From Pseudomonadota bacterium (GTDB lineage: Bacteria > Pseudomonadota > Gammaproteobacteria > Acidiferrobacterales > Acidiferrobacteraceae): a DNA stretch of 64,000 nucleotides. The stretch spans positions 23,377-87,376 of the forward strand of contig JAKARW010000002.1 of the NCBI GenBank assembly GCA_021819125.1, read 5' to 3'. Made by a program: the position numbers and the translations under genes. The notes beneath the pieces are model-generated. The model was given only the letters and a program-made list of their open reading frames with translations, did no database searches and was not told where the DNA came from. This document shows positions 38,561-54,845 of this stretch, in pieces (positions within the stretch are counted from its first letter, which is position 1; each line of letters begins with the position of its first letter).

Positions 38561-39631
38561 CTATCCTTCGGGTGATCGCAGGCCACGGCCTCTCGCGTAC
38601 TGCGCCGCGCCAAGACCCTTGTGTGTCATGCCCTCGAGGGCCCAATCGCCCTTGGCGGCGCGCTCCAGACGATCGCGCACCGCGTCCCACTCCTCGGTGG
38701 CGGGCGGCCGCTCGACCAGCACCATACGACAACCCCAGTGATCGATCGCGCGCAGGCGCGCGTAGAGCGCGCGACCATAAGCGCCGGCCGCGCGCGGCAT
38801 CACAAGCCAACGGCACCGCACGGGTCCCCGGGCCGGGGGACGCAAGGCGATCACCGCCAGTGGCCGTGGCCCGAGGCGCCACTCCCGATCTGGATCGGCG
38901 ACGAGCCGTAAGGGGGTCGCGGGGGCGTAATGAGAGGGGAGGCGTCCGGGGGCGCGCGGACCGCCGGTTGCCAAAAACACCGGTGTGCGACCGATGATGG
39001 CGGCCAACGCCCGTGGCGCCACCGCGCCCGGACGCAGTATGCGCGGCTCGGACCCGCTGAGGTCGAGGATCGTGGATTCGAGACCCACCACACAAGCGCC
39101 GCCGTCCAAAATCGCATCCACCGCGCGCCCAAGGCCTGCGGCGACATGCGCGGCGGTGGTCGGGCTCACGCCGCCAAACGGATTGGCCGAGGGGGCGGCC
39201 AAGCCGCGTCCGAAGGCCTTGAGGAGGGCCTGCGCCACGGGGTGCGCCGGAACGCGCAGACCGATTGTGTCTTGGCCACCGGTGACGCTATCGGGCAGGC
39301 CCGGGGCACGGCGCATGATGAGCGTCAGAGGCCCCGGCCAGAAGCGTTCGGCAAGCCGCCAGGCGACGGGCGGGATGTCGCGCGCGTACCGGCGCATCTG
39401 ATCGGCATCGCTGATATGGACGATCAGGGGATGGTCGGCCGGACGCCCCTTGGCGGCGAACACGCGCGCCACGGCTACGGCATTGTGCGCATCCGCGGCC
39501 AAACCGTAGACCGTCTCGGTCGGAAACGCGACCAGGCCGCCACGATCCAGTATCCCGGCCGCGCGCACGATCTCCGATTCCAAGACGCGTCGCGCGCGCC
39601 AAGGCGTGCCATCACACTCATCCGCACTCAT
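38561..39631 (-). CDS. L-threonylcarbamoyladenylate synthase (Sua5/YrdC)
   Basis: GGLVAFPTETVYGLAADA; PSANPFGGVSPTTA; Sua5 C-terminal domain. Confidence 0.92.
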   Translation of the reverse strand: MSADECDGTPWRARRVLESEIVRAAGILDRGGLVAFPTETVYGLAADAHNAVAVARVFAAKGRPADHPLIVHISDADQMRRYARDIPPVAWRLAERFWPGPLTLIMRRAPGLPDSVTGGQDTIGLRVPAHPVAQALLKAFGRGLAAPSANPFGGVSPTTAAHVAAGLGRAVDAILDGGACVVGLESTILDLSGSEPRILRPGAVAPRALAAIIGRTPVFLATGGPRAPGRLPSHYAPATPLRLVADPDREWRLGPRPLAVIALRPPARGPVRCRWLVMPRAAGAYGRALYARLRAIDHWGCRMVLVERPPATEEWDAVRDRLERAAKGDWALEGMTHKGLGAAQYARGRGLRSPEG

Positions 39632-40335
39632 GCCTCGGCACCCATGGCAAGTGCGGCGACAATCGCCGTCAGGGAAGGCGCGATGGCGCGCCAAGCAAGG
39701 TTGCCGTCTTTGGTGTCGTGATGACGGACGATGAAAGGATCGCGCCCGAGCCAGTAGGCGAGATCGGCGCCGTTATCCATCTGCGAATCGGCGCCCAGCG
39801 CCGTCTGGTTCAACACCACCCCGGCCAGCATGAGGCCGCGACGCGCGACCGCCTCGGCCGTCAGCAGGGCCTGATGGATGGCGCCGAGCCGATCGGCGCT
39901 TACGACCAGCACCGGAAGACCGAGGGCTACGGCCAGATCGGCGTTCAGGGCATCGGCTGTCAGTGGCGAATAAAACCCCCCGGCGCCCTCCACCAATAAA
40001 AAGTCCCCGGGGTGGACCTCTTCGCGGCACGCCTGGACCAAATCGTTGAGGCGTAGGGTCCGGCCCTCCAAGGCCGCCGCGCGCGCGGGCGAAAGCGGCG
40101 CACGAAACCGGTAATGGCCAATGCGCGTAAGCGGCTCCCGGCCTTCGATCGCCGCGTGATAGGTCTCGCCATCGCCGGGATGCGCGCCGCCCTGTTGTGC
40201 GGTACAACCCGATTCCACGGGCTTACGCGGCCGCACGATGAGGCCTTCACGGGACAACCGCCAGGCCAGCGCGGCACCGATAACGGTCTTGCCGACACCC
40301 GTATCGCTCCCGGTGATAAATACCCCTCGCATCAC
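39628..40335 (-). CDS. bioD: dethiobiotin synthase
   Basis: MRGVFITGSDTGVGKTVIGAAL; LVEGAGGFYSPL. Confidence 0.94.
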   Translation of the reverse strand: MMRGVFITGSDTGVGKTVIGAALAWRLSREGLIVRPRKPVESGCTAQQGGAHPGDGETYHAAIEGREPLTRIGHYRFRAPLSPARAAALEGRTLRLNDLVQACREEVHPGDFLLVEGAGGFYSPLTADALNADLAVALGLPVLVVSADRLGAIHQALLTAEAVARRGLMLAGVVLNQTALGADSQMDNGADLAYWLGRDPFIVRHHDTKDGNLAWRAIAPSLTAIVAALAMGAEA

Positions 40336-40514
40336 ACCCCCTTTAAGGCCCGCACCCCAAAATCACACGATCGGCTACCAGCGCGCGCGGACCGTTTTGC
40401 CGCCGTGGCTTGCCCTTTCCAAGAAATCGCCGTCAAGAAGATACACGCATCCCGCCACGTCCGCGCGTTGTGGCCCACCGGGCTTTGGTGAACGCGGATT
40501 GTTTTGCCACCGCA

Positions 40515-41888
40515 TCATATGTCGGAAAGCACGCGCGTGATGGTCGCCGTCAACATCGACAGATCCTCCGGACTTATGATATAGGGAGGCATCAAATAGA
40601 CGAGCCGGCCGAAAGGACGCAGCCAGACACCCGCCTCCACGAATCGTGCCGTAAGCGCCGGCAGATCAATGGCGGCGCGGGTCTCCACGACCCCGATCGC
40701 GCCCAGTACCCGGACGTCGCCGACGGCCGCCAATCCACGGCAGGCGTCGAGCTCACGGGCCAGCTGGCCTTCGATATCCGCGACACGGATCTGCCAATCG
40801 CTTGCCGTCAGCAGGTCGACGCTCGCCACCGCCGCGGCGCACGCAAGCGGGTTGGCCATGAACGTGGGTCCGTGCATGAGGCAACCGGCCGGGCTCTGCC
40901 CGATCGTCGTGGCGATCTCGGCGGTTGTCAGGGTTGCGGCAAGCGTCATGTAGCCCCCGGTCAGGGCCTTGCCCAGGCACAGGATGTCCGGCGTCACCAT
41001 GGCGTGATCGCAGGCCAGAAATCGGCCGGTGCGACCGAAACCCGTGGCGATCTCATCGGCGATGAGCAGCACGGCGTGGGCGTCGCACAAGGCCCGCACC
41101 TCGCGCAGGTATTGCGGGTGATAAAACCACATCCCGCCCGCGCCTTGCGCGATGGGCTCCAGGATGACCGCCGCGAGTTCGTCTTCATGCGCGGATATCA
41201 GGTCGGCGAATGCGCTGATGGCCGATGGCTCCCAGGGGCCGTCGAACCGGCACGCGGGCCTCGGCGCAAAGACCTGTTCCGGGACAAGCCCGGTAAACAA
41301 CCGGTGCATGCCGGTGACCGGGTCGCACACCGACATGGCGGCAAAGGTGTCGCCATGGTAACCCCCGCGCACGGTGAGGAGACGGTGCTTGGCCGGCCGT
41401 CCGCGCGCCTGCCAATACTGGATCGCCATCTTGATGGCAACCTCCACGGCCACCGAACCCGAGTCGCACAGAAAGACCTTTTCGAGGGGCGCCGGGGTCA
41501 GATCCACGAGCCGCCGCCCAAGTTCGATCGCCGGTGCGTGTGTAAGCCCCCCAAACATGACATGCGCCATGCGCGCCAACTGCTCGCTGACAGCGCGATT
41601 GAGCACCGGGTGGTTATAGCCGTGGATCGCCGCCCACCATGAACTCATGCCGTCGATCAGCCGCCGGCCATCGGCAAGCGTCAGCCGTACGCCGTCGGCC
41701 GCCACCACCGGCCAGACCGGCGCGCCTAGGGCCGCGTAGGGATGCCAGAGATGGGCCTGATCGAACGCCACGGCGCGCGCCCAATCACAAGCTTCAGGTC
41801 CGCCACCCTCGGCCTGGGCGCCAGCGAGGCGGCCCTCCCCATCGCGCGTGCACGATCTTGTCTCGGAAATCGGACCCGTCTGGCTCAT
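40515..41888 (-). CDS. bioA: adenosylmethionine-8-amino-7-oxononanoate aminotransferase
   Basis: [25 protein letters not shown]. Confidence 0.94.
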
Positions 41889-43564
41889 GCTCCATCCGTC
41901 ACCGCGCCACGACTCGCAGACGAGACGAGGCGCGCATATTTGGCCAAGGTGCCGCGTGTATAGCGCGGCGCGGGGGGCGCCCAGAGCGCGCGGCGGCGCG
42001 TAAGCTCCTCCTCCGGCACGTCGAGTTGCAAGACACGCCGCTCGGCGTCGATGATCACCGTGTCGCCATCGGCCACCAATGCGATCGTGCCGCCGACTGC
42101 GGCCTCCGGCGCCACATGTCCCACCACCATACCATAAGTGCCGCCCGAGAAACGCCCATCAGTGACAAGCCCCACGAGGTCGCCTAGGCCCTGCCCGACG
42201 AGCGCCGCGGTGGGCGAGAGCATTTCGCGCATTCCGGGGCCGCCGCGCGGCCCCTCGTAGCGGATCACGACCACGTCGCCGGCCGCTATGCGCCGCTCCA
42301 TGATGGCGGCCATGCACGCCTCCTCGGAATCGAACACGCGCGCCGGACCGGTAATCCTCGGGGCCTTGACGCCGCTGGTCTTGGCAAGCGCCCCTTCGCA
42401 GGCGAGATTACCCTTAAGAATCGCCAAATGGCCGTGCGTATAGACCGGCCGCTCCCAGGGCCGGATGACATCCTGATCGGCACGAGGATGCTCGGGCACG
42501 TCTTGCAGGACCTCGGCGATCGTCTGCCCGGTCACGGTCAGGGCGTCACCGTGCAAAAGACCATGCGCGAGCAGCATTTTCATCACCTGCGGCACCCCGC
42601 CCGCGCGATGCAGATCGGTGGCGACATAGCGGCCGGACGGCTTGAGATCACACAACACCGGCACGCGGTGGCTGAAGGCATCGAAGTCGTCTAGCGTCAG
42701 TTCCACACCGGCGGCGTGCGCGATCGCCGGCAAGTGGATGACGGCGTTGGTGGAACCGCCCAACGCCATGAGCACCGCAAGCCCGTTTTCGAAGGCCTTG
42801 CGCGTAAGGATCGCGCGCGGCAACCGCCGCGCCTTTATGGCCTCGACCAGCACCCTTGCCGACTGCGCGGCGCTGTCGGCCTTTTCGGCATCCTCGGCGG
42901 TCATGGTCGCGGAGTACGGCAGGCTCATGCCCATGGCCTCGAATAGCGCCGACATGGTGTTGGCGGTGTACATGCCGCCGCACGACCCGGCGCCTGGGCA
43001 GGCCTTGCGTTCGATCTCGTGCAATTCCCGGTCATCGATCGTGCCGGCGATATGCGCGCCGACCGCCTCGAAGACACTTATGATGGTAAGGTCGCGCCCG
43101 TCATGATGGCCGGGCTTGATCGTGCCCCCGTAGACAAACACCGCCGGGATATTGAGCCGCGCGATGGCGATCATGGCGCCCGGCATGTTCTTGTCGCAAC
43201 CGCCGAAGGCCAACACCCCATCCATGCTCTGGCCGGCGCAAACGGTCTCTATCGAATCGGCTATAACCTCGCGCGACACGAGGGAATATTTCATGCCTTC
43301 GGTCCCCATGGCAATGCCATCCGAAATGGTAATAGTCCCGAACATCTGGGGCATGGCCCCGGCCGCGGCCAAAGCCGCCTCGGCGCGCGCGGCAAGAGGC
43401 CCAATCCCCATGTTGCACGGCGTGATCGTGCTGTGGGCGTTGGCCACGCCCACAATCGGCTTTTCGAAATCGTCATCGTCGAACCCGGTGGCGCGCAACA
43501 GCGCGCGGTTGGGGGCGCGTTTTGTGCCGGTCGTCACGACACGGCTTTTGTGGTTGTCAGACAT
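41885..43564 (-). CDS. ilvD: dihydroxy-acid dehydratase
   Basis: [42 protein letters not shown]. Confidence 0.95.
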
Positions 43565-43662
43565 TAAGGTCCTCCTTAAACGATGGTTGAGATCGATGCG
43601 GCTTGCGCCAGACGGGTGTGGGCGGACGAACCGCCGCCCGCCGGCCCAATAGGGGTGTCGGA

Positions 43663-44769
43663 TCAGTCGGCCAGACGCCACGCGACCACCTCCCCGGCGC
43701 GCAACGGCACGAACACATCGGCGCCGGCGGCCCTCGTGGATGGGACTTGCCATGGCTCCTTTATAAGCGTGACGCGATCTTGATTACGTGGCAGCCGGTA
43801 AAAGTCCGGCCCGTTGCAACTTGCGAACCCCTCCAGGCGATCGAGCGCATGGGCACCCTCGAAGACCTCGGCATAGAGCTCTAGCGCCGCGTGCGCGGTA
43901 TAGATCCCGGCGCACCCGCAAGACGACTCCTTGGCGTGCCGAGGGTGCGGCGCGCTGTCGGTTCCGAGGAAGAATTTCCGACTGCCACCGGTGGCGGCGG
44001 CCACCAGCGCGGCGCGATGATGGGCACGCTTTAGAAGCGGCAGACAGTAATGATGGGGCCGCAGACCGCCTGTAAACATCGCGTTGCGATCGAGCAGCAA
44101 GTGGTGGGCGGTGATCGTCGCGGCCAAGGTGTCAGGACTTGCGCTTACGAACTCGACCGCGGCACGGGTCGTGATGTGCTCCAAAACCATGCGCAGGCCC
44201 GGGAACGCACGCGTAAGCGGCAGCAAGTGGCGCTCGAGAAACACCGCTTCGCGATCGAAGGCATCCACCGCGGGGTCCGTGACCTCGCCGTGCAAGAGCA
44301 AAGGGACATCGAGACGTTCCATGGCCGCCAGCACCGGATAACAACGCGTAAGGTCGCGCACACCCTGCGCGGCATGGGTGGTGGCGCCAGCCGGATAATA
44401 CTTGACGGCGAGCACGGCTTTGGCGGCATGCGCCCGGGCAATCTCGTGAGGGCGCATGGCCTCGGTGAGAAAGAGCGTCATCAAAGGTTGAAAAGATGCG
44501 CCCGCGGGCAACGCCGACAGGATCCGCGCGCGATAGGCGAGCGCTTCGGCGACCGTGCGCACCGGCGGATCGAGGTTGGGCATGACAATGGCCCGGGCGA
44601 AGCGGCGTGCGGTGTCTGGCACCACCGCCGCCAACATCGCCCCATCCCGCAGATGAACATGCCAATCGTCGGGGCGCACAAGGCTTATGTGCGTGACCGG
44701 CGCCGGATGTCTTGGGCCATCGGCCAAAGCCACGGGGCGCGGCGCGCCATCGTCCGCGCACTCGCTCAC
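43663..44769 (-). CDS. pyrC: dihydroorotase
   Basis: [31 protein letters not shown]. Confidence 0.94.
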
Positions 44770-44951: not shown

Positions 44952-45836
44952 TTAAGGGTTGCAGATATCGCAACGGGCCGGATCGGCCTGCGCGCGGTCT
45001 TTCAGGTCACGCGTCACCCGGTGCCCGCACTTAAGACAACCATGGACCTCGGCGCGCGTCTCGCGCGTGGGCGCCCCACACGCTTGACAGGGAAGCCCGG
45101 CGATCACCTCCACCGTCCAGAACCCCGGGGTGCGGCAAACAGGGCAGAGCGATGCCAGACGTCGGCCGAGGTCGACTGCGGCGAGCCGGATATTGATGAG
45201 GCGTGTGGGGTTGGCATAGGCGCGTAGATCCACTTCCACGAACACGCGCCCGCTCGGCGACTGCGCGGCGGCCTCCTCATAGGCGGCCTTGAACGCCGAC
45301 CAATCCGCGATCCCCTTGCGGATACGGGGATCCCCATCGTGGTCGGGCCTTAAGACCAGATAATGCTCGGGAAAGCGCACCGTGTGCGCAAACCGCTCGG
45401 CATCCTCCCAATTCGCCGCCAGGATCTGGGCGCTGTTGGCCCGACCCTGCGCCATGCCGACCACCTCGAGTCCCAGCAAATCATCCAGAAAGACCAGGAA
45501 TTCGATATTCCAGGGAAACATCCCCGCAAACGGATCGCGGGTGAAAGATCCTTCGCTGGCAAGCCCGACCGAAAGCCCCGAGAGCTCCATGCCGATCCGC
45601 GCCTTGTGGCGGGCCGCCTCGATCTGCGTGCCGGCACGCGGGATGTCACGCGTGAATGTCCCGAGGAGATCGGTGTCATAGCCTGCCACCCGCTCGACAA
45701 GGCAACCCACGAATCCCTCGAGGACCGGACCTACGATCCGCTCCTTGCCGTGCTGGGTCAGAAACGCCGCACGCTGTCCCCGGTAGAGGCTGCGGGTCGA
45801 CGCGGCATAAGCCGCCATAGGCCCGTTTAGGCTCAT
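44952..45836 (-). CDS. DUF6671-like protein with C-terminal zinc ribbons
   Basis: four CxxC motifs (CPVC, CQAC, CLKC, CDIC); 4-nt overlap with DabA-like gene. Confidence 0.75.
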   Translation of the reverse strand: MSLNGPMAAYAASTRSLYRGQRAAFLTQHGKERIVGPVLEGFVGCLVERVAGYDTDLLGTFTRDIPRAGTQIEAARHKARIGMELSGLSVGLASEGSFTRDPFAGMFPWNIEFLVFLDDLLGLEVVGMAQGRANSAQILAANWEDAERFAHTVRFPEHYLVLRPDHDGDPRIRKGIADWSAFKAAYEEAAAQSPSGRVFVEVDLRAYANPTRLINIRLAAVDLGRRLASLCPVCRTPGFWTVEVIAGLPCQACGAPTRETRAEVHGCLKCGHRVTRDLKDRAQADPARCDICNP

Positions 45837-48112
45837 GATACCTGCTCCCATCGCCCGTCACGGGCGCGCAAGAAGAGGCCGGGGGCCTCGCTGTCCATCT
45901 GAAACAAAAACAGCCATCCATGCTCCACTACGCTATGCACGATCTCGTGGCGCGCCAACACCTCGTCCACCCGCGCGCGGGGCGCCTCCACGAACGCGTT
46001 GAGACGCAGCGGCTCGTGGGCCCCACGCCGACTGTCAAAGAGCGACGGGATCGAAAACCCATTGTCCCGATCGCCGCCCGCGCCCTCCCACGCCCCAATG
46101 CATCCACCCACCCTGTCGTGCAGGGCCTTGTGGCCGCCGCCGAAGCGTTTAGGGTCGACCACGGAGGCGTAGTACCGCATGTTCATCCAATGGGCCGCCA
46201 TCATCGGTGCGGTCATGAGGTAGCGCAAAATCCGGAAATCCGTATCCCGGCGCCACTCGTAATCATGCAGGAACGCGCGGCCATCCAACGCCACGCCCTT
46301 CGTGCGCGCGCGCGGCGCCGCGATAAAAGCGGCATTGCCGATAAATTCAGACTCAACGGCGGCTTGCGCCGATTGCGGCATGCGCGCGCCGACCGGGGCG
46401 CTTACGGGGTCCGCCGCGCACACAGGCGAGACAGGCGCGCAAACACGCTCCGCGCGCGCGTGCCGGCTTGCCTCCTCCAGGGCCGCGCGCGTAGCCCGCA
46501 GATCCCAGGCGTGCGTCGCCTCCCATGGTCCCGTATCGAACAAGACGACTTCATCGTGCGTGCTATCGTAGCGCGCGGGCACGAAGCTCGTATCCGCCGG
46601 GATCACAATCCCTTCTGGCGCAAGACGGGTGCGTACAGCGCGATCATTCAGCAAGGCCGCCACCGTCCGTACGTCCATTTCGCTTGTCCACCGTCCGATG
46701 GACGATTCCGCGGCATGCGGCTTATAACCGGGAAGCCGACTGTGATCGATCAGTAATACCAGCCGCGCGAAGCCGTCGGTGAGCGACATGACGCGAAGAA
46801 ATCCCGAGGCCATGGCACTTTGATCGGCATCGGTGATGACCGATGCCTGCTCGGCGTCTGCGCCCGGGCGTGACGCATGCGCGGGTGGCGTGACAGGCCA
46901 AAAGGCTTCCATGAACGGATCGAATGGGGCATGGGCGTACGCGAGGCCGCAGAAACCGCCAAACCCGAGGGTCTGGGTCTGCGGCGCGATCGTCTCCAGG
47001 GCGCGACGAAAGACCTCGGCGCGATTATTCATGCAAAAGACCACCTGGACCGCGGCGCGGCCCTGCGAGCCAAGGCGGTCAGGCCGCTCGCCGCAAGCCG
47101 CCAGATCAGCGACGATGCGTCGGCGGTATCCGAGCTCGAGCGCGGTCTGGAGGACCGAGTCGATTTGGGCATCGGGCGTCATGCGCGCCGAATGGGTCGA
47201 CGGCAGGGCCGAGAGCGCCGCCTGCCAAGCGGCCTTGAGGCGCGGCTTCGGGGCCGCGCAAAAAACGATGAGTTCCCAGGCGAGCCGGATGGCGAGCAGA
47301 TCCTCGATGTCGGCGCGGCCGCCGTCGGCTGCGCGTCCCTGGCGCGTCTCCTGCGCGCGGGTCGCCCATCCCCCGATATCGAGAAGTGCGGCGTGGCAAT
47401 AGTCCGTGATATGGGCGCTGGGGACGGCCAACGTCTTTAGGACGAGTTCGATGGACTTGAGTGGTTGCCGGGGCAGCCGCCCGACGATATCCGCCACCCC
47501 CTTGAGCCCCATGGTCCGGGGGCTTGCATCGAGCCTTGCGAAATCACGCCACGCGTCGTAGAGGGGCTCATCGCGCCACGGCAGGGGCCATGAGGCCTGA
47601 CCGGGATCGAAGTAGGCGGCGGCGAACTGACTGATGCGTTCGACACAGAATGCCGCCCACGGCGTATCGGGGTCGATCCGCTGCAAGATATGCGACACAA
47701 GCGGCAGCCTCTGCACGGGCGGCGCATCGTCGTGCGCCAAGAGACTCGCGGCGGACTTTTCGTCGGATGGCAGACCATGCGCCTTCAAGGCCTCGGCTAT
47801 ATCGCCGCGCGTGACGCGGCCGCATGCGATCTGCTCCCGGTAATAGCGGCGTGGCATGGTAAGCGTGGACCCGGCTACCCGCGCCAAGATCGGGCCCGCT
47901 TTCTCGAAATCCACATGACGCAATCCGAAGTAGGGATTGACGGCCACCGACGCATCCTGCGTCCAAGCCGGCGCGAGCCTGTCACAGGCCTTGCGCACCG
48001 CGACGCGCCACGCGGACTCGCCGCAGGTGACCGGGACTCCATCGGTCCACCCATGATCCCCCGCCACACACCGTGGCCCATCGACCCGCGATGCCCCTAG
48101 GAAGCCATCCAT
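45833..48112 (-). CDS. DabA-like (DUF2309) protein, divergent active site
   Basis: NPYFGLRH N-term; VVFCMNNRAEVFRRALE; C-terminal GRAFLHDYEWRRD..LMTAPMMAAHWMNMRYYASVVD..HEPLRL. Confidence 0.85.
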   Translation of the reverse strand: MDGFLGASRVDGPRCVAGDHGWTDGVPVTCGESAWRVAVRKACDRLAPAWTQDASVAVNPYFGLRHVDFEKAGPILARVAGSTLTMPRRYYREQIACGRVTRGDIAEALKAHGLPSDEKSAASLLAHDDAPPVQRLPLVSHILQRIDPDTPWAAFCVERISQFAAAYFDPGQASWPLPWRDEPLYDAWRDFARLDASPRTMGLKGVADIVGRLPRQPLKSIELVLKTLAVPSAHITDYCHAALLDIGGWATRAQETRQGRAADGGRADIEDLLAIRLAWELIVFCAAPKPRLKAAWQAALSALPSTHSARMTPDAQIDSVLQTALELGYRRRIVADLAACGERPDRLGSQGRAAVQVVFCMNNRAEVFRRALETIAPQTQTLGFGGFCGLAYAHAPFDPFMEAFWPVTPPAHASRPGADAEQASVITDADQSAMASGFLRVMSLTDGFARLVLLIDHSRLPGYKPHAAESSIGRWTSEMDVRTVAALLNDRAVRTRLAPEGIVIPADTSFVPARYDSTHDEVVLFDTGPWEATHAWDLRATRAALEEASRHARAERVCAPVSPVCAADPVSAPVGARMPQSAQAAVESEFIGNAAFIAAPRARTKGVALDGRAFLHDYEWRRDTDFRILRYLMTAPMMAAHWMNMRYYASVVDPKRFGGGHKALHDRVGGCIGAWEGAGGDRDNGFSIPSLFDSRRGAHEPLRLNAFVEAPRARVDEVLARHEIVHSVVEHGWLFLFQMDSEAPGLFLRARDGRWEQVS

Positions 48113-48401
48113 GGCGCCCCCTTTTCCCTGCGGTGGCGCGCCGGGCGGACGACGCACGCCGCAAGGACTGCAAAGAACGTAGACACTGGCGCCCCCATCG
48201 ACCGCTGCGTTGTTCCTATAGGCGAGATCCTGGTCACGGGTTTGGCCCTCCGGCCGCACCGCCCATTGCGGCAAACGAGGATGTTAAAGACCTTTAAGAA
48301 TAAGCGACACTTAATATTAAAAATTATGAGGATTTACCGCGGTTAATTCCCGTTCGCGGCACGCCGGCCCAGACCTTGGGCCTTACCCCTCATCGCGGGC
48401 C

Positions 48402-49628
48402 TTACGCCCGATCGGGGACCAGGGCCGGCCGAAACGCCAAGGGCGCGATCTCTGGAATAAGGTCGACCATACGGTAATCGCCTTCGATGCGATCGGAGGC
48501 CACCGGCGCCAGACGCCGATCCATGAATCCGGTATAGGCCGGGTGCCTACGAAAGGCATCGACCGCCGGTGCCGAGGCAAGACGCGCCAGCAGGCAGTGG
48601 CGATACCGGCCGCCCTCACCTGCGACGTGGCCGACCTGAACGGAGCGCACCCCCGGGATGCCCGACAAAATCCGCTGCCCCTCGGTCATCAGGGCCTGCA
48701 ACGCCGGGGCATCCAGACGCGGCGCATCGTAAACGACGATATGCATGATGTTGTTCCACGGGCGGCACCGGTCGAGCACTTCCGCGGCGCGACCCGCCGA
48801 GCCCCATGCGCGCATGGGCGGCTCGAGCTGCGCGGCGATGCTTTCATGGATGCCATCCTTCAGGGCGCTGTAAGACGCATGACGATCGCCTCGTACGTTG
48901 GCCCGCAGCCGCTCGCTCGCCATGGCGCCCGGGGCCACGGAGCAGGAGATCTTGGCCACACCCAACATGATAAATCTACGGCATTGCTCATCGCCCAACC
49001 CCATCTCGCCTGAAATGACCAACGGTATCTTAAGCGCGGCATTGATCTCCTTGAGGCGCCCCCAGTCGAACCGCGACCTTCCTCGCCCCCGCACCATGTC
49101 TGCCGAAACGAGTAGGAAATCCACTTGGGTGCGCTCCACAAAACCCTTGGCCTCGGCCACGGTCGCATATTGAACGGCGCGCGGTGCGTGGCCTTCTGTG
49201 GCGTCGCCATCGGGCGCATAGGCCAATTCGCCTTCGACCGGCACCCCGCAGGCATGTGCCGCATCCACGATCGCGCGTGTGCGGTCGATATGACGAAAGA
49301 GCGATTCCTGAAGGGCGCGCGCGACGATGCCGTTGGCGCCCAGGCGGACACCGCGTACCACGGAATCCCTGTCGGTCCCGCCATCGAAGTGGATCGCCAC
49401 GGGAACGGTGGCGCGTGCCGCGGCGGCCTCCACGGCGGCCATGACCCAGGCGAAGACAGGACTTTGAGACGGCGGCTCGGCGACACTGAGGATGACCGGC
49501 GCGCGCGCCGATTCGGCCGCCGCCAACACCGCCGGCAGGAAATCCAGCTCCGCGAGATCGAACGCGCCCACCGCATAGCCGTTCTCGTAAGCGTGCGTGA
49601 GCATGTCCTTCATGTCCACCAACGGCAT
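48402..49628 (-). CDS. class II aldolase-like protein fused to Dabb-like domain
   Basis: VDMKDMLTHAYENGYAVGAFDLAELDF.., C-terminal HIVVYDAPRL..GIPGVRSVQVG..HPAYTGFM. Confidence 0.82.
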   Translation of the reverse strand: MPLVDMKDMLTHAYENGYAVGAFDLAELDFLPAVLAAAESARAPVILSVAEPPSQSPVFAWVMAAVEAAAARATVPVAIHFDGGTDRDSVVRGVRLGANGIVARALQESLFRHIDRTRAIVDAAHACGVPVEGELAYAPDGDATEGHAPRAVQYATVAEAKGFVERTQVDFLLVSADMVRGRGRSRFDWGRLKEINAALKIPLVISGEMGLGDEQCRRFIMLGVAKISCSVAPGAMASERLRANVRGDRHASYSALKDGIHESIAAQLEPPMRAWGSAGRAAEVLDRCRPWNNIMHIVVYDAPRLDAPALQALMTEGQRILSGIPGVRSVQVGHVAGEGGRYRHCLLARLASAPAVDAFRRHPAYTGFMDRRLAPVASDRIEGDYRMVDLIPEIAPLAFRPALVPDRA

Positions 49629-49982
49629 AGCAAGTCCTCAAGACATCGATGACGGGAGTCGAAAGCCGCCGCGACTTGCCCCGCGCGCGATGGCCGAAAG
49701 CCCCCGCGCCCCGCGCCAAAAAACGCGGCTTTGAATGGGCCGGGGTGTCCGACCCGAAGATAGGACGCGGCCCCAAAGGCAGCGCTCTTTGGTTCGCGCG
49801 CGCCCGTGGCGCACGGGCGGTGCCCCATCAAGGGGTTACCGATCCCGCCGCATAGACCCAAGACCCCGTCGCTTTGGTCCCGGCTCATGTGGCAGGAGAC
49901 CCCGTTAGGCGTGATCGAATTTAGAGAGTAATATGCTTAAAGAGAAGTCAGTCTTAATTAGCGTAGCTATTTATCGTAGTTA

Positions 49983-50969
49983 ATGATTAACCATTGGACG
50001 CTCCAGCAACTTCGGCTCTTCGAGGCGGTCGCCCGTCACCGCAGCTACACGCGCGCGGCCGAGGAGCTGTGCCTGACGCAACCCGCGGTCCACATCCAGG
50101 TGCGCAGGCTCGAGGAGATCGTAGGCCTGCCGCTGATCGAGCGGGTCGGCAAGAAGCTTTTGCTGACGCGCGCGGGCGAAGAGGTGTACGCCGCCACGGT
50201 CGCGGTGATGGATCAGTTGCGCGCGCTCACAGGCGAGATCGCGGACATGAAGGGCAAGGTGGCAGGCCCCCTGAAGATGGCCGTGGTCACCTCCGCCAAG
50301 TTCTTCATGCCGCATTTCCTCGGACTTTTCATACAGGAATATCCCGATGTGGCGCCCCAGCTCATAGTCACGAACCGCGCGCGCGTGCTGGAGCGCCTGA
50401 CGGAAAATCTCGATGACTTCGTCATCATGGGACAGATCCCAAACGATATGGACCTCACGGTCCGGCCGTTCATGGACAACCTGCTGGTGGTCGTGGCGCA
50501 CCCAGACCACCCGTGGGCGGACCGCGTCGATATCCCCCTGGCGGAGATCGTGCGCGAACGTTTCTTGTTGCGCGAGGCCGGTTCCGGGACACGCATGTCG
50601 GCCGCGCAGATGTTCGCCGAACAGGGGCTCGACGTGAAGCCCTACATGGAGCTTGGGTCGAGCGAGGCCATAAAACAGGCGATCATGGCCGGTCTTGGGA
50701 TCTCGGTGCTGGCCTTAAGCAGCCTGGAACTCGAATTGGAGGCGAGACGTCTCGTCATCCTGGATGTCGCAGGCTTCCCCTTGCATAGGACATGGTACGC
50801 GGTCCATCTGCAAGGCAAGCATCTGGGCCTCACCGCCAGCGTGTTCCTGGACTTTCTGGTCAAGGAGGGCCCCGACCTCGGGGTGCGCAAGGGCTGGGTG
50901 GCCGAACTTCACCCCGCCCATCGCCCGCGCGAGGCGCGCAAAAAACTCGGAAAGACGCGTACCCCGTGA
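49983..50969 (+). CDS. cbbR: LysR-family regulator, CbbR-like
   Basis: TLQQLRLFEAVARHRSYTRAAEELCLTQPAVHIQVRRLEEIVGLPLIE. Confidence 0.88.
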   Translation: MINHWTLQQLRLFEAVARHRSYTRAAEELCLTQPAVHIQVRRLEEIVGLPLIERVGKKLLLTRAGEEVYAATVAVMDQLRALTGEIADMKGKVAGPLKMAVVTSAKFFMPHFLGLFIQEYPDVAPQLIVTNRARVLERLTENLDDFVIMGQIPNDMDLTVRPFMDNLLVVVAHPDHPWADRVDIPLAEIVRERFLLREAGSGTRMSAAQMFAEQGLDVKPYMELGSSEAIKQAIMAGLGISVLALSSLELELEARRLVILDVAGFPLHRTWYAVHLQGKHLGLTASVFLDFLVKEGPDLGVRKGWVAELHPAHRPREARKKLGKTRTP

Positions 50970-51010: not shown

Positions 51011-52117
51011 CTATCGCGCGCCCGGCTCCGGCCATTTCTGGCGCTTTTTCAAGATAGCCTCCACCAAGCCAATGGCGCGCTCGAAACTTGTCGCCACGTG
51101 CCGAAAGCGAATGCGCGCACCGGGGCCTAGCATGCTCTGAAAACGCGGCCCGACCCGTTCGTCGGGATCGTACACACGAAACATCTCAAGCGGATTATCC
51201 CCGACCGACCCCAGCGCATACAGGTAGCGAAAGAACAGATCCGACTCCGGCAATGAGTAGCCGATCACGAAAATGTGCTGGGCATCCGACAACTCCTGGG
51301 CCGCCTGGGCCCATACCCGGGTGAACTCGCTTTGGTAGCCGTACTTGTTCCAGGTCGGCGGCACGATCACCGGATGCTCGCCCGATGGACGGTCGAGGAT
51401 ATGCGCCGTGGTGCAGAGCCGGAACACGCCCTCCGCGTGCCTGCGAAACACGATGCCTGCCGACTCCGCCAACAAGCGATCCATCCTCCAGGGCACCACC
51501 TCTCCGGTCGCCCCTGCCACCCAGTTGAGCGAGCCGTGCAGCTTGAGAAGCGGGATACCGGCGGGCGGATCGGAGTCGTCCAGGCAATAGCGCACCGGAA
51601 TTCCCCCTTGATGCAAAGCGTAATCCAAAGCCAGGTCATAATTGAACGTGAGGATGGCGTGACGGTATGGGGGTGATGCCGCCTGGCTCTCGCGCAGGAG
51701 CTCCACAAACCGGGGGTAGGGGTCGGGCGCCACCGGCAGATCCCCGGCGCGTTTTTCGTTGAAGTTGAGCGTCGACTCCAGGGTGTAGGCGATGACGGTC
51801 TTCAAGGCCGCGATCAAGGCATCGATCTCGCTCACTCCGTAGCCTGGCATTCGGCCAAGAAGCCGGGCCATCTCAAAGGCCGCGAACACACTCTCGACAT
51901 TGGTGATATCGAGATCCTGCGCCTTCGAATGCACGGCCTGGAGTTTACCGATCGCCTCGAAGACACGGGCGAAATCCCCCGCGCGGCCCTGCACGGCCCC
52001 GGTAAACAAAAGCCGACGCGCCTTGTCTAGAAAGTTGCTCATGACCGGCGCGCCGCCCTGCTGCGACGCCCCCGCCCCGAGAATGAATACGACATCAGCC
52101 ACTTGTAACCTCCGCAC
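51011..52117 (-). CDS. SIR2-domain protein
   Basis: VVFILGAGASQQGGAPVMSNFLDKA..; AILTFNYDLALDYAL; KLHGSLNW. Confidence 0.82.
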   Translation of the reverse strand: MRRLQVADVVFILGAGASQQGGAPVMSNFLDKARRLLFTGAVQGRAGDFARVFEAIGKLQAVHSKAQDLDITNVESVFAAFEMARLLGRMPGYGVSEIDALIAALKTVIAYTLESTLNFNEKRAGDLPVAPDPYPRFVELLRESQAASPPYRHAILTFNYDLALDYALHQGGIPVRYCLDDSDPPAGIPLLKLHGSLNWVAGATGEVVPWRMDRLLAESAGIVFRRHAEGVFRLCTTAHILDRPSGEHPVIVPPTWNKYGYQSEFTRVWAQAAQELSDAQHIFVIGYSLPESDLFFRYLYALGSVGDNPLEMFRVYDPDERVGPRFQSMLGPGARIRFRHVATSFERAIGLVEAILKKRQKWPEPGAR

Positions 52118-52426: not shown

Positions 52427-53395
52427 ATGGGGGGCTTTGTGGATTCTACGAATGGCGTCGTGACCTATGGCTTTCACGGGGTGACGGATACTGAAAAGGT
52501 CCTCCTCCAGTCCATGATCGAGCGGATATCCCGCAGTCTGCCAGGTCCGGTGGCGCAAGTGCCGGCACGCGACGCACAGCTCGTGTTCTTCGATGGGCCA
52601 GCGCCCCACCCAGACAAGACCGAAAGGCGGCTTGTGCGTGTGGTCCGGGACCCAGGCGCGCGGCGGTTCTCGGGCGGTCTGCGCATGCCGCCTCACGTCA
52701 CGGATCTCCTCGATATCTTCACGGAATTCGTGGAGCAGGGGGCCTATGCGCAGACCCGGTGCACGGCCATGCGGTCGCTGGTCCGCTCGCTCCACGACCT
52801 GTTCCGAACCCGCGGCGCGCCGCACGCGCTCATCGACAAAGACGGCACGAGCCTCGTCTTGTACCCGGCCGATCGGCAGTTCTCGTGGTCGGATTCCGAA
52901 AACACACGAGCCCTGCCCGAATTCTTCCAATCGCACCGGCTCCCGGGACTCGACCTGCGTCCATGGGACGCGTCCGAACCCGGAGAGGGCCGGGAGCGGC
53001 GCGGCATTGAGCCCCTATTTTGGCACATGGGGCTTGCGCACGCGCGTTGCGGGCTCTTGCCATGGGTCGGGCGTGACGACCCCCTCAAGATGCGCGCGTG
53101 GCCCTATCTCACGGCCCAAGGACCGGCCACCGCGACCCGTCTTGCCACCGTCTTGCGCACACGACCACAAAGCGTGGCGGCCCTGGCGGATGCCGCTTGC
53201 GTCCCCGAGACCGATGCCGTGGCATTCGCCAATGCCGCGCTTTTGTGCGGATTCGTGGTGACCGCGAAGTCGACGGACACACAGGCCTTGGCGCACCGAC
53301 CGAGCGCCCCTGACGCGGACTTAAGGGCCTTGGGCACGGCGCGACGGCCCGGCATTCTGGGCGCCATCCGCAACGCCCTGGGGATACGTTCGTGA
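52427..53395 (+). CDS. hypothetical protein upstream of GTPase/roadblock genes
   Basis: 322-aa ORF overlapping GTPase gene by 4 nt. Confidence 0.7.
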   Translation: MGGFVDSTNGVVTYGFHGVTDTEKVLLQSMIERISRSLPGPVAQVPARDAQLVFFDGPAPHPDKTERRLVRVVRDPGARRFSGGLRMPPHVTDLLDIFTEFVEQGAYAQTRCTAMRSLVRSLHDLFRTRGAPHALIDKDGTSLVLYPADRQFSWSDSENTRALPEFFQSHRLPGLDLRPWDASEPGEGRERRGIEPLFWHMGLAHARCGLLPWVGRDDPLKMRAWPYLTAQGPATATRLATVLRTRPQSVAALADAACVPETDAVAFANAALLCGFVVTAKSTDTQALAHRPSAPDADLRALGTARRPGILGAIRNALGIRS

Positions 53396-53985
53396 GCGAG
53401 GAACTGAAGCTTTTGTTCGCGGGCGCGATGGGCGCGGGCAAGACCACCGCGATACGCGCGATCAGCGAAATCGCGCCCATAACAACCGAGGCTGCCAACA
53501 GTGACCACACGGAATGCAACAAAGAGGAGACCACCGTGGCCATGGATTATGGCGAGATCACGTTGGCGACAGGCGAGAAGCTGCGGCTCTATGGGACCCC
53601 GGGCCAGGCGCGCTTTCAGTTCATGTGGCCGATCCTTGCCACCGGGGCCCTTGGCGTGGTGATCCTGATCGACAACTCACGCCCCGACCCCTTGGCGGAC
53701 CTCGAGCTTTACCTCGATGCCTTTCGCGCGCTCGCCGATGGCGGCGCCGCGGTCGTGGGCGTCGGACGCATGGACCGCTGCCCACAGCCATCGCTCGAGG
53801 CCTACGCCGAACGGTTGGCGGCGCTCGATGTCGTGGTTCCGATCGTGCCCGCCGACGTGCGCCGGCGCGACGAGGTCCTCACAATGCTCGAAATTCTTCT
53901 CCAACAGCTCGAGGCGACATGGGCCTATGACGAGGCCATCGGCGACGGCCTGTCGGGTCACGGATTAATGGGAGCGCATCCATGA
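53392..53985 (+). CDS. small Ras-like GTPase (MglA/COG2229-like)
   Basis: LLFAGAMGAGKTTAIRAIS; LYGTPGQARF; overlaps next gene by 4 nt. Confidence 0.88.
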   Translation: MSEELKLLFAGAMGAGKTTAIRAISEIAPITTEAANSDHTECNKEETTVAMDYGEITLATGEKLRLYGTPGQARFQFMWPILATGALGVVILIDNSRPDPLADLELYLDAFRALADGGAAVVGVGRMDRCPQPSLEAYAERLAALDVVVPIVPADVRRRDEVLTMLEILLQQLEATWAYDEAIGDGLSGHGLMGAHP

Positions 53986-54410
53986 ACGCGCGCGCCATTG
54001 CGCCAGACGTGATCGCGGCCTTTGATGAGGAGATTCGTAAGCTGCATGCCCGGGTGGCGGGCGTCATCGGGTGCGTGCTCGCCACCACGGACGGACGACG
54101 AGTATCGGCGGTGGTCGACAACGAGGCCGATCCGCAGCGGGTGTCGGCAATGGTGGGATCGATCGTGGCGCTCGGCGAGACCATCGGCCGCGAAGTCATG
54201 ATCGGGCGCACGCAGTTTGTCGCGGTGAGCGCGGTGGACGGCATGATCCTGCTCCAGAGGGTACCGGCCAAGCGCGATCTGCTGGTCGTGGGGACGTTGG
54301 CGCGGCGCCATACCAATCTCGGGATTCTTCTGCACGAAACCGGGATCGCCGCCGAGGCCGCGGCCCGGATTCTCGACGACTGGTTGGGGCGCGACTTGCA
54401 GCCCGCTTGA
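53982..54410 (+). CDS. roadblock/LC7-domain protein
   Basis: VAGVIGCVLATTDGRRVSAVVDNEADPQRVSAMVGSIVALGETIGRE. Confidence 0.82.
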   Translation: MNARAIAPDVIAAFDEEIRKLHARVAGVIGCVLATTDGRRVSAVVDNEADPQRVSAMVGSIVALGETIGREVMIGRTQFVAVSAVDGMILLQRVPAKRDLLVVGTLARRHTNLGILLHETGIAAEAAARILDDWLGRDLQPA

Positions 54411-54485
54411 TGGCTGCCGGATTGACAGCAACACCGCGAGGCACCTCTCGCGGCTACGAGACTCAACAGAGGATGGATATAAGTC

Positions 54486-54845
54486 ATGGCAAAAGTGGAT
54501 CTGAGCAGTATTCAGGATATCGACGGGTTTATCGCAGCGGCGCTCGGCGATTCGAGTAGCGGCATGCTGTTGGCGAGGACCGGAAACCAGGCGGTCGACC
54601 TGGATCTGGCGATAGCCGGCAATTCGGAGGTGGTGAACACGAAACGCGCACTGGTGGCGCGCCTGAATCTCGACGACAAGATCGAGGATATCCTTATTAC
54701 GCTTGGCAAGCAGTACCACCTGATCCGGCCCCTGGAACGTAACGACCAGCTGTTCCTCTATCTGATGCTGGATCGCGCCAAGGCCAATCTCGCCATGGCC
54801 CGCCATGAATTGAGGGTCTACGAAAAGACCCTGGATTTTTCTTAA
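54486..54845 (+). CDS. second roadblock/LC7-like protein
   Basis: IQDIDGFIAAALGDSSSGMLLA..EDILITLGKQYHLIRPL..LFLYLMLDRAKANLAMARHEL. Confidence 0.78.
   Translation: MAKVDLSSIQDIDGFIAAALGDSSSGMLLARTGNQAVDLDLAIAGNSEVVNTKRALVARLNLDDKIEDILITLGKQYHLIRPLERNDQLFLYLMLDRAKANLAMARHELRVYEKTLDFS

Follow-up and report, generated by a model that had tools for sequence, protein, structure and literature searches.

A possible relic of an inorganic-carbon-uptake operon and its DUF6671 protein, a recurrent neighbour of inorganic-carbon transporters

The stretch of DNA analysed here, hereafter the window, comprises 64,000 nucleotides from a gammaproteobacterium of the Acidiferrobacteraceae (GCA_021819125.1, contig JAKARW010000002.1, our contig C7, whose end it forms; genome 2.15 Mb). 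It carries a CbbR-like regulator gene transcribed divergently from three genes that encode an aldolase-like protein, a DabA-like protein and a member of the DUF6671 family. Why should these four genes stand together? From what the sequence shows of the genes present, the residues missing, ancestry, genomic neighbours, selective constraint and gene losses, we favour, with about even confidence, the view that the locus is a remodelled, relic operon for the uptake of dissolved inorganic carbon (DIC) whose working part would be DUF6671, acting as a nucleotide-responsive regulator of uptake. The features on which the argument turns are the following, with the flanking genes last.

49983-50969, plus strand: CbbR-like LysR regulator, 328 aa (PF00126 and PF03466)
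48402-49628, minus strand: class II fructose-bisphosphate aldolase (FBA)-like protein without zinc ligands and with a C-terminal Dabb domain, 408 aa (PF01116 and PF07876)
45833 to about 48112, minus strand: DabA-like putative pseudoenzyme, 759 aa from the conserved ATG (PF10070)
44952-45836, minus strand: DUF6671 protein with two C-terminal CxxC..CxxC zinc ribbons (PF20376, 133.2 bits)
49904-49990, no strand: conserved block, a candidate shared operator, immediately 5' of the cbbR start and including it (comparison of eight species)
43663-44769, minus strand: pyrC (dihydroorotase), the 3' neighbour, in the same direction as the operon (TIGR00856, 444 bits)
39628-43753, minus strand: bioD, bioA and ilvD, the downstream flank, conserved and used as synteny anchor

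DUF6671 is the member of the locus with the most telling neighbourhoods. The window protein belongs clearly to PF20376 (gathering threshold 23.8 bits), with all signature residues and with the four CxxC motifs that the initial annotation had recognised (236/239, 255/258, 272/275 and 294/297), which are conserved in the family. The Pfam entry records nothing functional for the family, and none of the literature searched names it. Within the class it is rare, occurring in 12 of 387 genomes scanned. Eight of the 11 class loci other than the window contain dabB-dabA, most of them beside a divergent LysR gene; one more adjoins the genes for SbtA and for an SbtB-like PII protein, and one has no such neighbours. 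At one class locus DUF6671 sits in a cluster of cbbLQO, carbonic anhydrase and biotin-carboxylase genes. DIC transporters are thereby neighbours in nine of 11 class loci and in five of seven loci drawn from the phylum, both draws being less biased than the wide scan described next.

The wide scan, of 85,488 species genomes, yielded 80 DUF6671 loci, those most similar to the query, from Pseudomonadota, Nitrospirota, Campylobacterota, Actinomycetota, Planctomycetota and others. A DIC transporter gene lies within 1.5 kb of DUF6671 in 49 of them (Dab 20, SbtA 25, SulP 5), and the count rises to 59 when the distance is widened to 9 kb, several contigs being short; transporter families were confirmed by Pfam on examples. 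The control family HAM1 has such a gene within 1.5 kb in one of 53 loci. At many loci of the Limnohabitans type a cbbR-like gene is divergent from sbtA-DUF6671, and an SbtB-like gene accompanies only about five of 34 SbtA loci, a lower bound given the single distant query used. Such surroundings point to DUF6671 as a probable soluble helper protein in DIC uptake. In the papers examined on DAB, SulP and SbtA we found no comparable accessory gene, and the link to DIC uptake appears undescribed in the literature searched. It is the transferable finding of this analysis, the trio of operon genes being a genus-level remodelling of known parts. Genes for bicarbonate-using enzymes (sua5, purK, biotin carboxylase) also recur near DUF6671, and sua5/tsaC is next to or near it in the unrelated loci L063, L068, L070, L254 and L255.

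What might such an accessory do? In Foldseek searches of the PDB with an AlphaFold2 model of DUF6671 (pLDDT 89), the seven best matches were ITPase/HAM1 proteins or the related KomB (probability about 1, E 3.3e-3 to 9e-3, target TM about 0.41). Alignment by hhalign to 47 HAM1 sequences picked out the same N-terminal region (P 3.9e-4), against P of at least 0.05 for ten unrelated control families. Compared with the ITPase/HAM1/Maf nucleotide pyrophosphatases, DUF6671 is nevertheless remote (about 11-13% identity); it has additional strands, and its tail is a double zinc ribbon. A profile search of PDB sequences gave weak matches only, mostly zinc-ribbon. An initial hhalign run against a smaller choice of HAM1 sequences showed nothing; because only the wider set gave a signal, we hold the ITPase claim to be weak, and the predicted ITPase-like fold of the N-terminal domain is a lead, not membership.

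For the proposed role the parallel is SbtB, a PII-like protein that regulates the bicarbonate transporter SbtA; SbtB is redox-tuned, and it binds adenyl nucleotides as well as hydrolysing them (PMC10991534). DUF6671 likewise is often encoded beside SbtA and likewise has a cysteine-bearing C-terminal element and a proposed nucleotide link. Unlike SbtB, it also stands beside DAB and SulP systems, and its fold is unrelated: PF20376 is the sole Pfam family that the sequence matches, and no PII protein is among the structural matches listed. We favour a nucleotide-responsive regulator because DUF6671 holds SbtB's position beside SbtA and SbtB is itself a redox-tuned nucleotide-binding protein.

The four-gene block is real and not a chance arrangement, since the whole of it, from the CbbR-like gene through the FBA-like, DabA-like and DUF6671 genes to pyrC, ilvD, bioA and bioD, keeps its synteny in seven further species of the genus. 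All four genes lie where the initial annotation had placed them. The overlap of 4 nt that it described between the DabA-like and DUF6671 genes holds when the conserved ATG at 45836 is taken as the DUF6671 start, and recurs identically in G004, G008, G006 and G011. The DabA-like start that agrees with relatives is the ATG near 48112; the open reading frame extends up to a TTG at 48274, and the part upstream of the ATG is not conserved among them.

The DabA-like protein matches PF10070 over its full length (538 bits, in two stretches). Its residues were numbered by alignment to Halothiobacillus neapolitanus DabA2 (9rd0), with roles taken from PMC13144422. In the Cys2His zinc site C351 and H524 are retained and C539 is replaced by isoleucine, and so the loss of metal ligands proposed in the initial annotation applies to one of three. 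In the Asp353-Arg355 dyad R355 is retained and the catalytic aspartate has become asparagine, a substitution (D353N) that impairs DabA2 in vivo (PMC13144422). Missing as well is the membrane finger of about 70 residues that joins DabA to DabB: 109 residues of DabA2, including E444, correspond to about 33 in the window protein. In DabA this hairpin enters the membrane and, with Glu444, completes the proton path of DabB (PMC13144422). The finger is absent from the DabA-like proteins of all eight genus members, and the operon has no dabB (no PF00361 gene). On present knowledge, and judged from its sequence, the DabA-like protein cannot be a working vectorial carbonic anhydrase. A predicted model was poor (pLDDT 70); its Foldseek matches, to beta-carbonic anhydrases (best E 0.07), added little, and DabA2 was not among them in a structure library reaching to 8 April 2026.

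In a maximum-likelihood tree the eight DabA-like proteins of the genus form one clade, separate from the genus's own DabA and sister (support 100/100) to the DabA of L088 and of L109 (Acidithiobacillus ferrianus), each encoded in a dabB-dabA-DUF6671 operon. With a stem branch as long as 0.85, that separation is better assured than the identity of the nearest neighbour. Like the DAC/DAB pumps (DabB-DabA; H. neapolitanus DAB2, PMC13144422), the window operon is divergent from a LysR regulator; it differs from them in the missing DabB and in the DabA-like features already described. At locus L069 the order is cbbR/dabB/dabA/DUF6671 with pyrC adjoining, the window order with dabB in the aldolase slot. 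As a separate observation, a PII/SbtB-like gene directly adjoins DabA1-type DAC genes at L161:12216-12611 and L109:11995-12321, which suggests PII-like regulation of that DAC subtype.

The aldolase-like protein has a history of its own. Its PF01116 match (residues 4-280, 146 bits) is followed by a Dabb (dimeric alpha/beta barrel) domain, PF07876, at residues 295-385, which the initial annotation had overlooked and which is unrelated to DabB despite the similar name. The same two-domain architecture (Pfam01116 and Pfam07876) is found in cbbA of the Acidithiobacillus ferrooxidans cbb1 operon (PMC2942843), and by sequence the fusion is the cbbA type of RuBisCO operons. Full-length relatives in other families of the order, among them members in cbbLSX operons, are 43-50% identical; in several order mates the aldolase-Dabb gene comes after cbbL-cbbS-cbbX and is divergent from cbbR, and a cbbX-like AAA+ gene stands alongside cbbLS and aldolase-Dabb in several (L154-L160). 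The window protein differs from cbbA in standing outside a RuBisCO operon and in its zinc site, where, as the initial annotation had it, all three histidines are replaced (G83, R180, S206); D82 is retained. Most relatives in the order keep all three (G028, G057, G023, G039, G018, G026, G021), and loss recurs: of all three in L130, of some in A. ferrianus (L172) and of several in G036. Canonical catalysis is unlikely for both enzyme-derived proteins, as the initial annotation proposed. That the window gene is the cell's only FBA was ruled out by a separate class II FBA-type gene of 365 aa on contig C69. A run of cbbO, zinc-less aldolase-Dabb, purE, purK and DUF6671 at L130:6172-9831, adjoining cbbR and dabB-dabA, is an independent meeting place of aldolase-Dabb and DUF6671.

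The top-scoring LysR model for the regulator is NCBIfam NF045990, CbbR (232 bits, short of the curated cut-off of 450), and the protein shares about 51% identity with the regulators that, in order mates, are transcribed divergently from cbbL. Positions 49904-49990 are near-invariant in the eight species compared, the remaining intergenic region not; the block contains matches to TNA-N7-TNA and T-N11-A, such matches being frequent by chance in A+T-rich DNA. The connection with CO2 fixation that the initial annotation had drawn is borne out at the level of families, through the aldolase-Dabb genes of cbbLSX operons and of A. ferrooxidans cbb1 (PMC2942843) and through DUF6671 beside DAB, SbtA and SulP. 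The trio as a new conserved system did not survive the proposed survey of neighbourhoods: no full trio was found outside one genus, and within that genus the pseudoenzymes are repeatedly lost where DUF6671 stays.

How could the locus have arisen? An ancestral operon of the form lysR/cbbR divergent from dabB-dabA-DUF6671 would have lost dabB, and its dabA would have been left a soluble pseudoenzyme by the loss of the finger, of one of the zinc cysteines and of the catalytic aspartate. The upstream slot may have been taken by an aldolase-Dabb gene of the cbbA type, drawn from a RuBisCO operon, which likewise lost its zinc site. DUF6671 would have been maintained as the partner common to DAB, SbtA and SulP uptake systems; its ITPase-like domain may bind or hydrolyse a nucleotide, and its zinc-ribbon tail may adjust or plug the uptake system as energy or redox state changes, comparable to SbtB on SbtA. 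In the genus it may act in trans on an intact DabB-DabA pump encoded elsewhere, the two pseudoenzymes being dispensable ligand-binding or scaffold relics. The host genome has three matches to the RuBisCO large-subunit family and two further DabA genes, one within an intact dabB-dabA pair on another contig (L048); in G002, G004 and G008 a canonical DabA gene lies about 15 kb from the block. The regulatory role, the nucleotide binding, the target and any complex of DUF6671 are what we infer from such comparisons. A broader form of the idea, which we regard as tentative and rather unlikely, is that DUF6671 is a general, unrecognised nucleotide-responsive regulator or plug for any DIC uptake (DAB, SbtA, SulP) in several phyla, a non-PII counterpart of SbtB, which in this genus would have become detached from its pump and joined to two dead carbon-metabolism enzymes as a soluble sensor.

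Several points weigh against a relic operon with a working DUF6671. The role proposed for DUF6671 is read from neighbourhood, which is not function; about a quarter of the 80 loci have no recognised DIC gene; and these loci, being the most query-similar, share ancestry, so that 49 of 80 overstates the number of independent events. In the genus itself DUF6671 no longer adjoins an intact pump. No Foldseek match reached E of 0.001 or below and the hhalign probability was low (35%), leaving the ITPase relation weak. Which gene moved next to which is deduced from present-day gene orders. Finally, the DabA-like frame is open in all eight species with a ratio of nonsynonymous to synonymous substitution rates (dN/dS) well below 1, so the protein still does something in its species.

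DUF6671 and CbbR are strongly constrained within the genus (dN/dS 0.09-0.21 and 0.06-0.17) and the two pseudoenzymes evolve faster: 0.20-0.30 for the FBA-like protein and 0.27-0.35 for the DabA-like protein, against 0.10-0.12 for canonical DabA of the same genomes. The DabA-like gene is missing in G012 and in G014 of the sister genus, which keep the aldolase and DUF6671; both enzyme genes are missing in G001, G009 and G010, which keep DUF6671, and in G009 an aldolase stump of about 70 codons ends directly before it. C351 is kept in every DabA-like protein and H524 in most, and position 353 is N, H, G or S depending on the species; the first zinc histidine of the FBA-like protein is replaced by G, E, Q, R or C. 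With the lost pocket residues replaced by different letters in each species, no new conserved site is visible, and such variation speaks for relaxed constraint rather than new shared chemistry.

Are the two pseudoenzymes then simply decaying, in an operon with no joint function where only CbbR and DUF6671 matter? We hold this to be possible though on the unlikely side. The highest dN/dS values of the locus and the recurrent losses speak for it; against it, the conserved part of either gene is free of stops across eight species whose dS is about 0.5-1, and dN/dS stays clearly below 1. That the DabA-like gene is a pseudogene, considered for in-frame stops in G005, G013 and G011, was rejected, the frames being open from the conserved start. 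Of the two readings of the pseudoenzymes, as sensors that can be dispensed with or as slowly decaying genes, our data somewhat favour the second; a role is possible because both are open and under purifying selection where present.

Unlikely in our judgement is a dedicated soluble regulatory or carrier complex, an idea near that of the initial annotation, in which the pseudo-DabA would bind CO2 or bicarbonate without turnover, the pseudo-aldolase-Dabb a Calvin-cycle sugar phosphate, and DUF6671 would integrate both. Gene order and the overlap of 4 nt are conserved in the genus, wherever the pseudoenzymes are kept their frames are open and dN/dS is under 0.4, the zinc ligands C351 and H524 largely persist, and parts of the N- and C-terminal regions of the DabA-like protein stay 75-80% identical; the substitutions at pocket positions nevertheless differ from one species to the next, the pair has disappeared from several species in which DUF6671 persists, and the trio is confined to one genus. 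Quite improbable is a housekeeping role for DUF6671, as a nucleotide-cleaning or RNA-related enzyme placed by clustering with bicarbonate-using anabolic genes (sua5/tsaC, purK, pyrC, biotin carboxylase) rather than by regulation of uptake: sua5, purEK, pyrC, ilvD and biotin-carboxylase genes do recur in its neighbourhoods and its domain is ITPase-like, but direct adjacency is mainly to transporter genes, often as lysR/transporter/DUF6671 with nothing else in common, and its rarity in the class contrasts with a housekeeping ITPase present in 60 of 60 genomes.

Why does a relic operon matter? The regulation of inorganic-carbon pumps in chemolithoautotrophs is poorly understood, and a small soluble protein that turns up repeatedly next to three unrelated kinds of uptake system is a tangible candidate, and one open to deletion, for the regulator or accessory that is missing. 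A role for DUF6671 would bear on moving bicarbonate uptake into other hosts, and the two pseudoenzymes offer a natural experiment in what stays of DabA and CbbA once catalysis is removed.

Two further features lie beyond the CbbR-like gene. A SIR2-like protein (PF13289, 368 aa; 51011-52117, minus strand) is 91-95% identical across most of the genus, a conservation unusual for a SIR2_2 gene of the defence type. At 52427-54845 on the plus strand stands a cassette of a 322-aa orphan, a small GTPase-like protein (PF03029), a Roadblock/LC7 protein and a 119-aa orphan, whose first three genes overlap end to start and which is about 63-96% identical across the genus.

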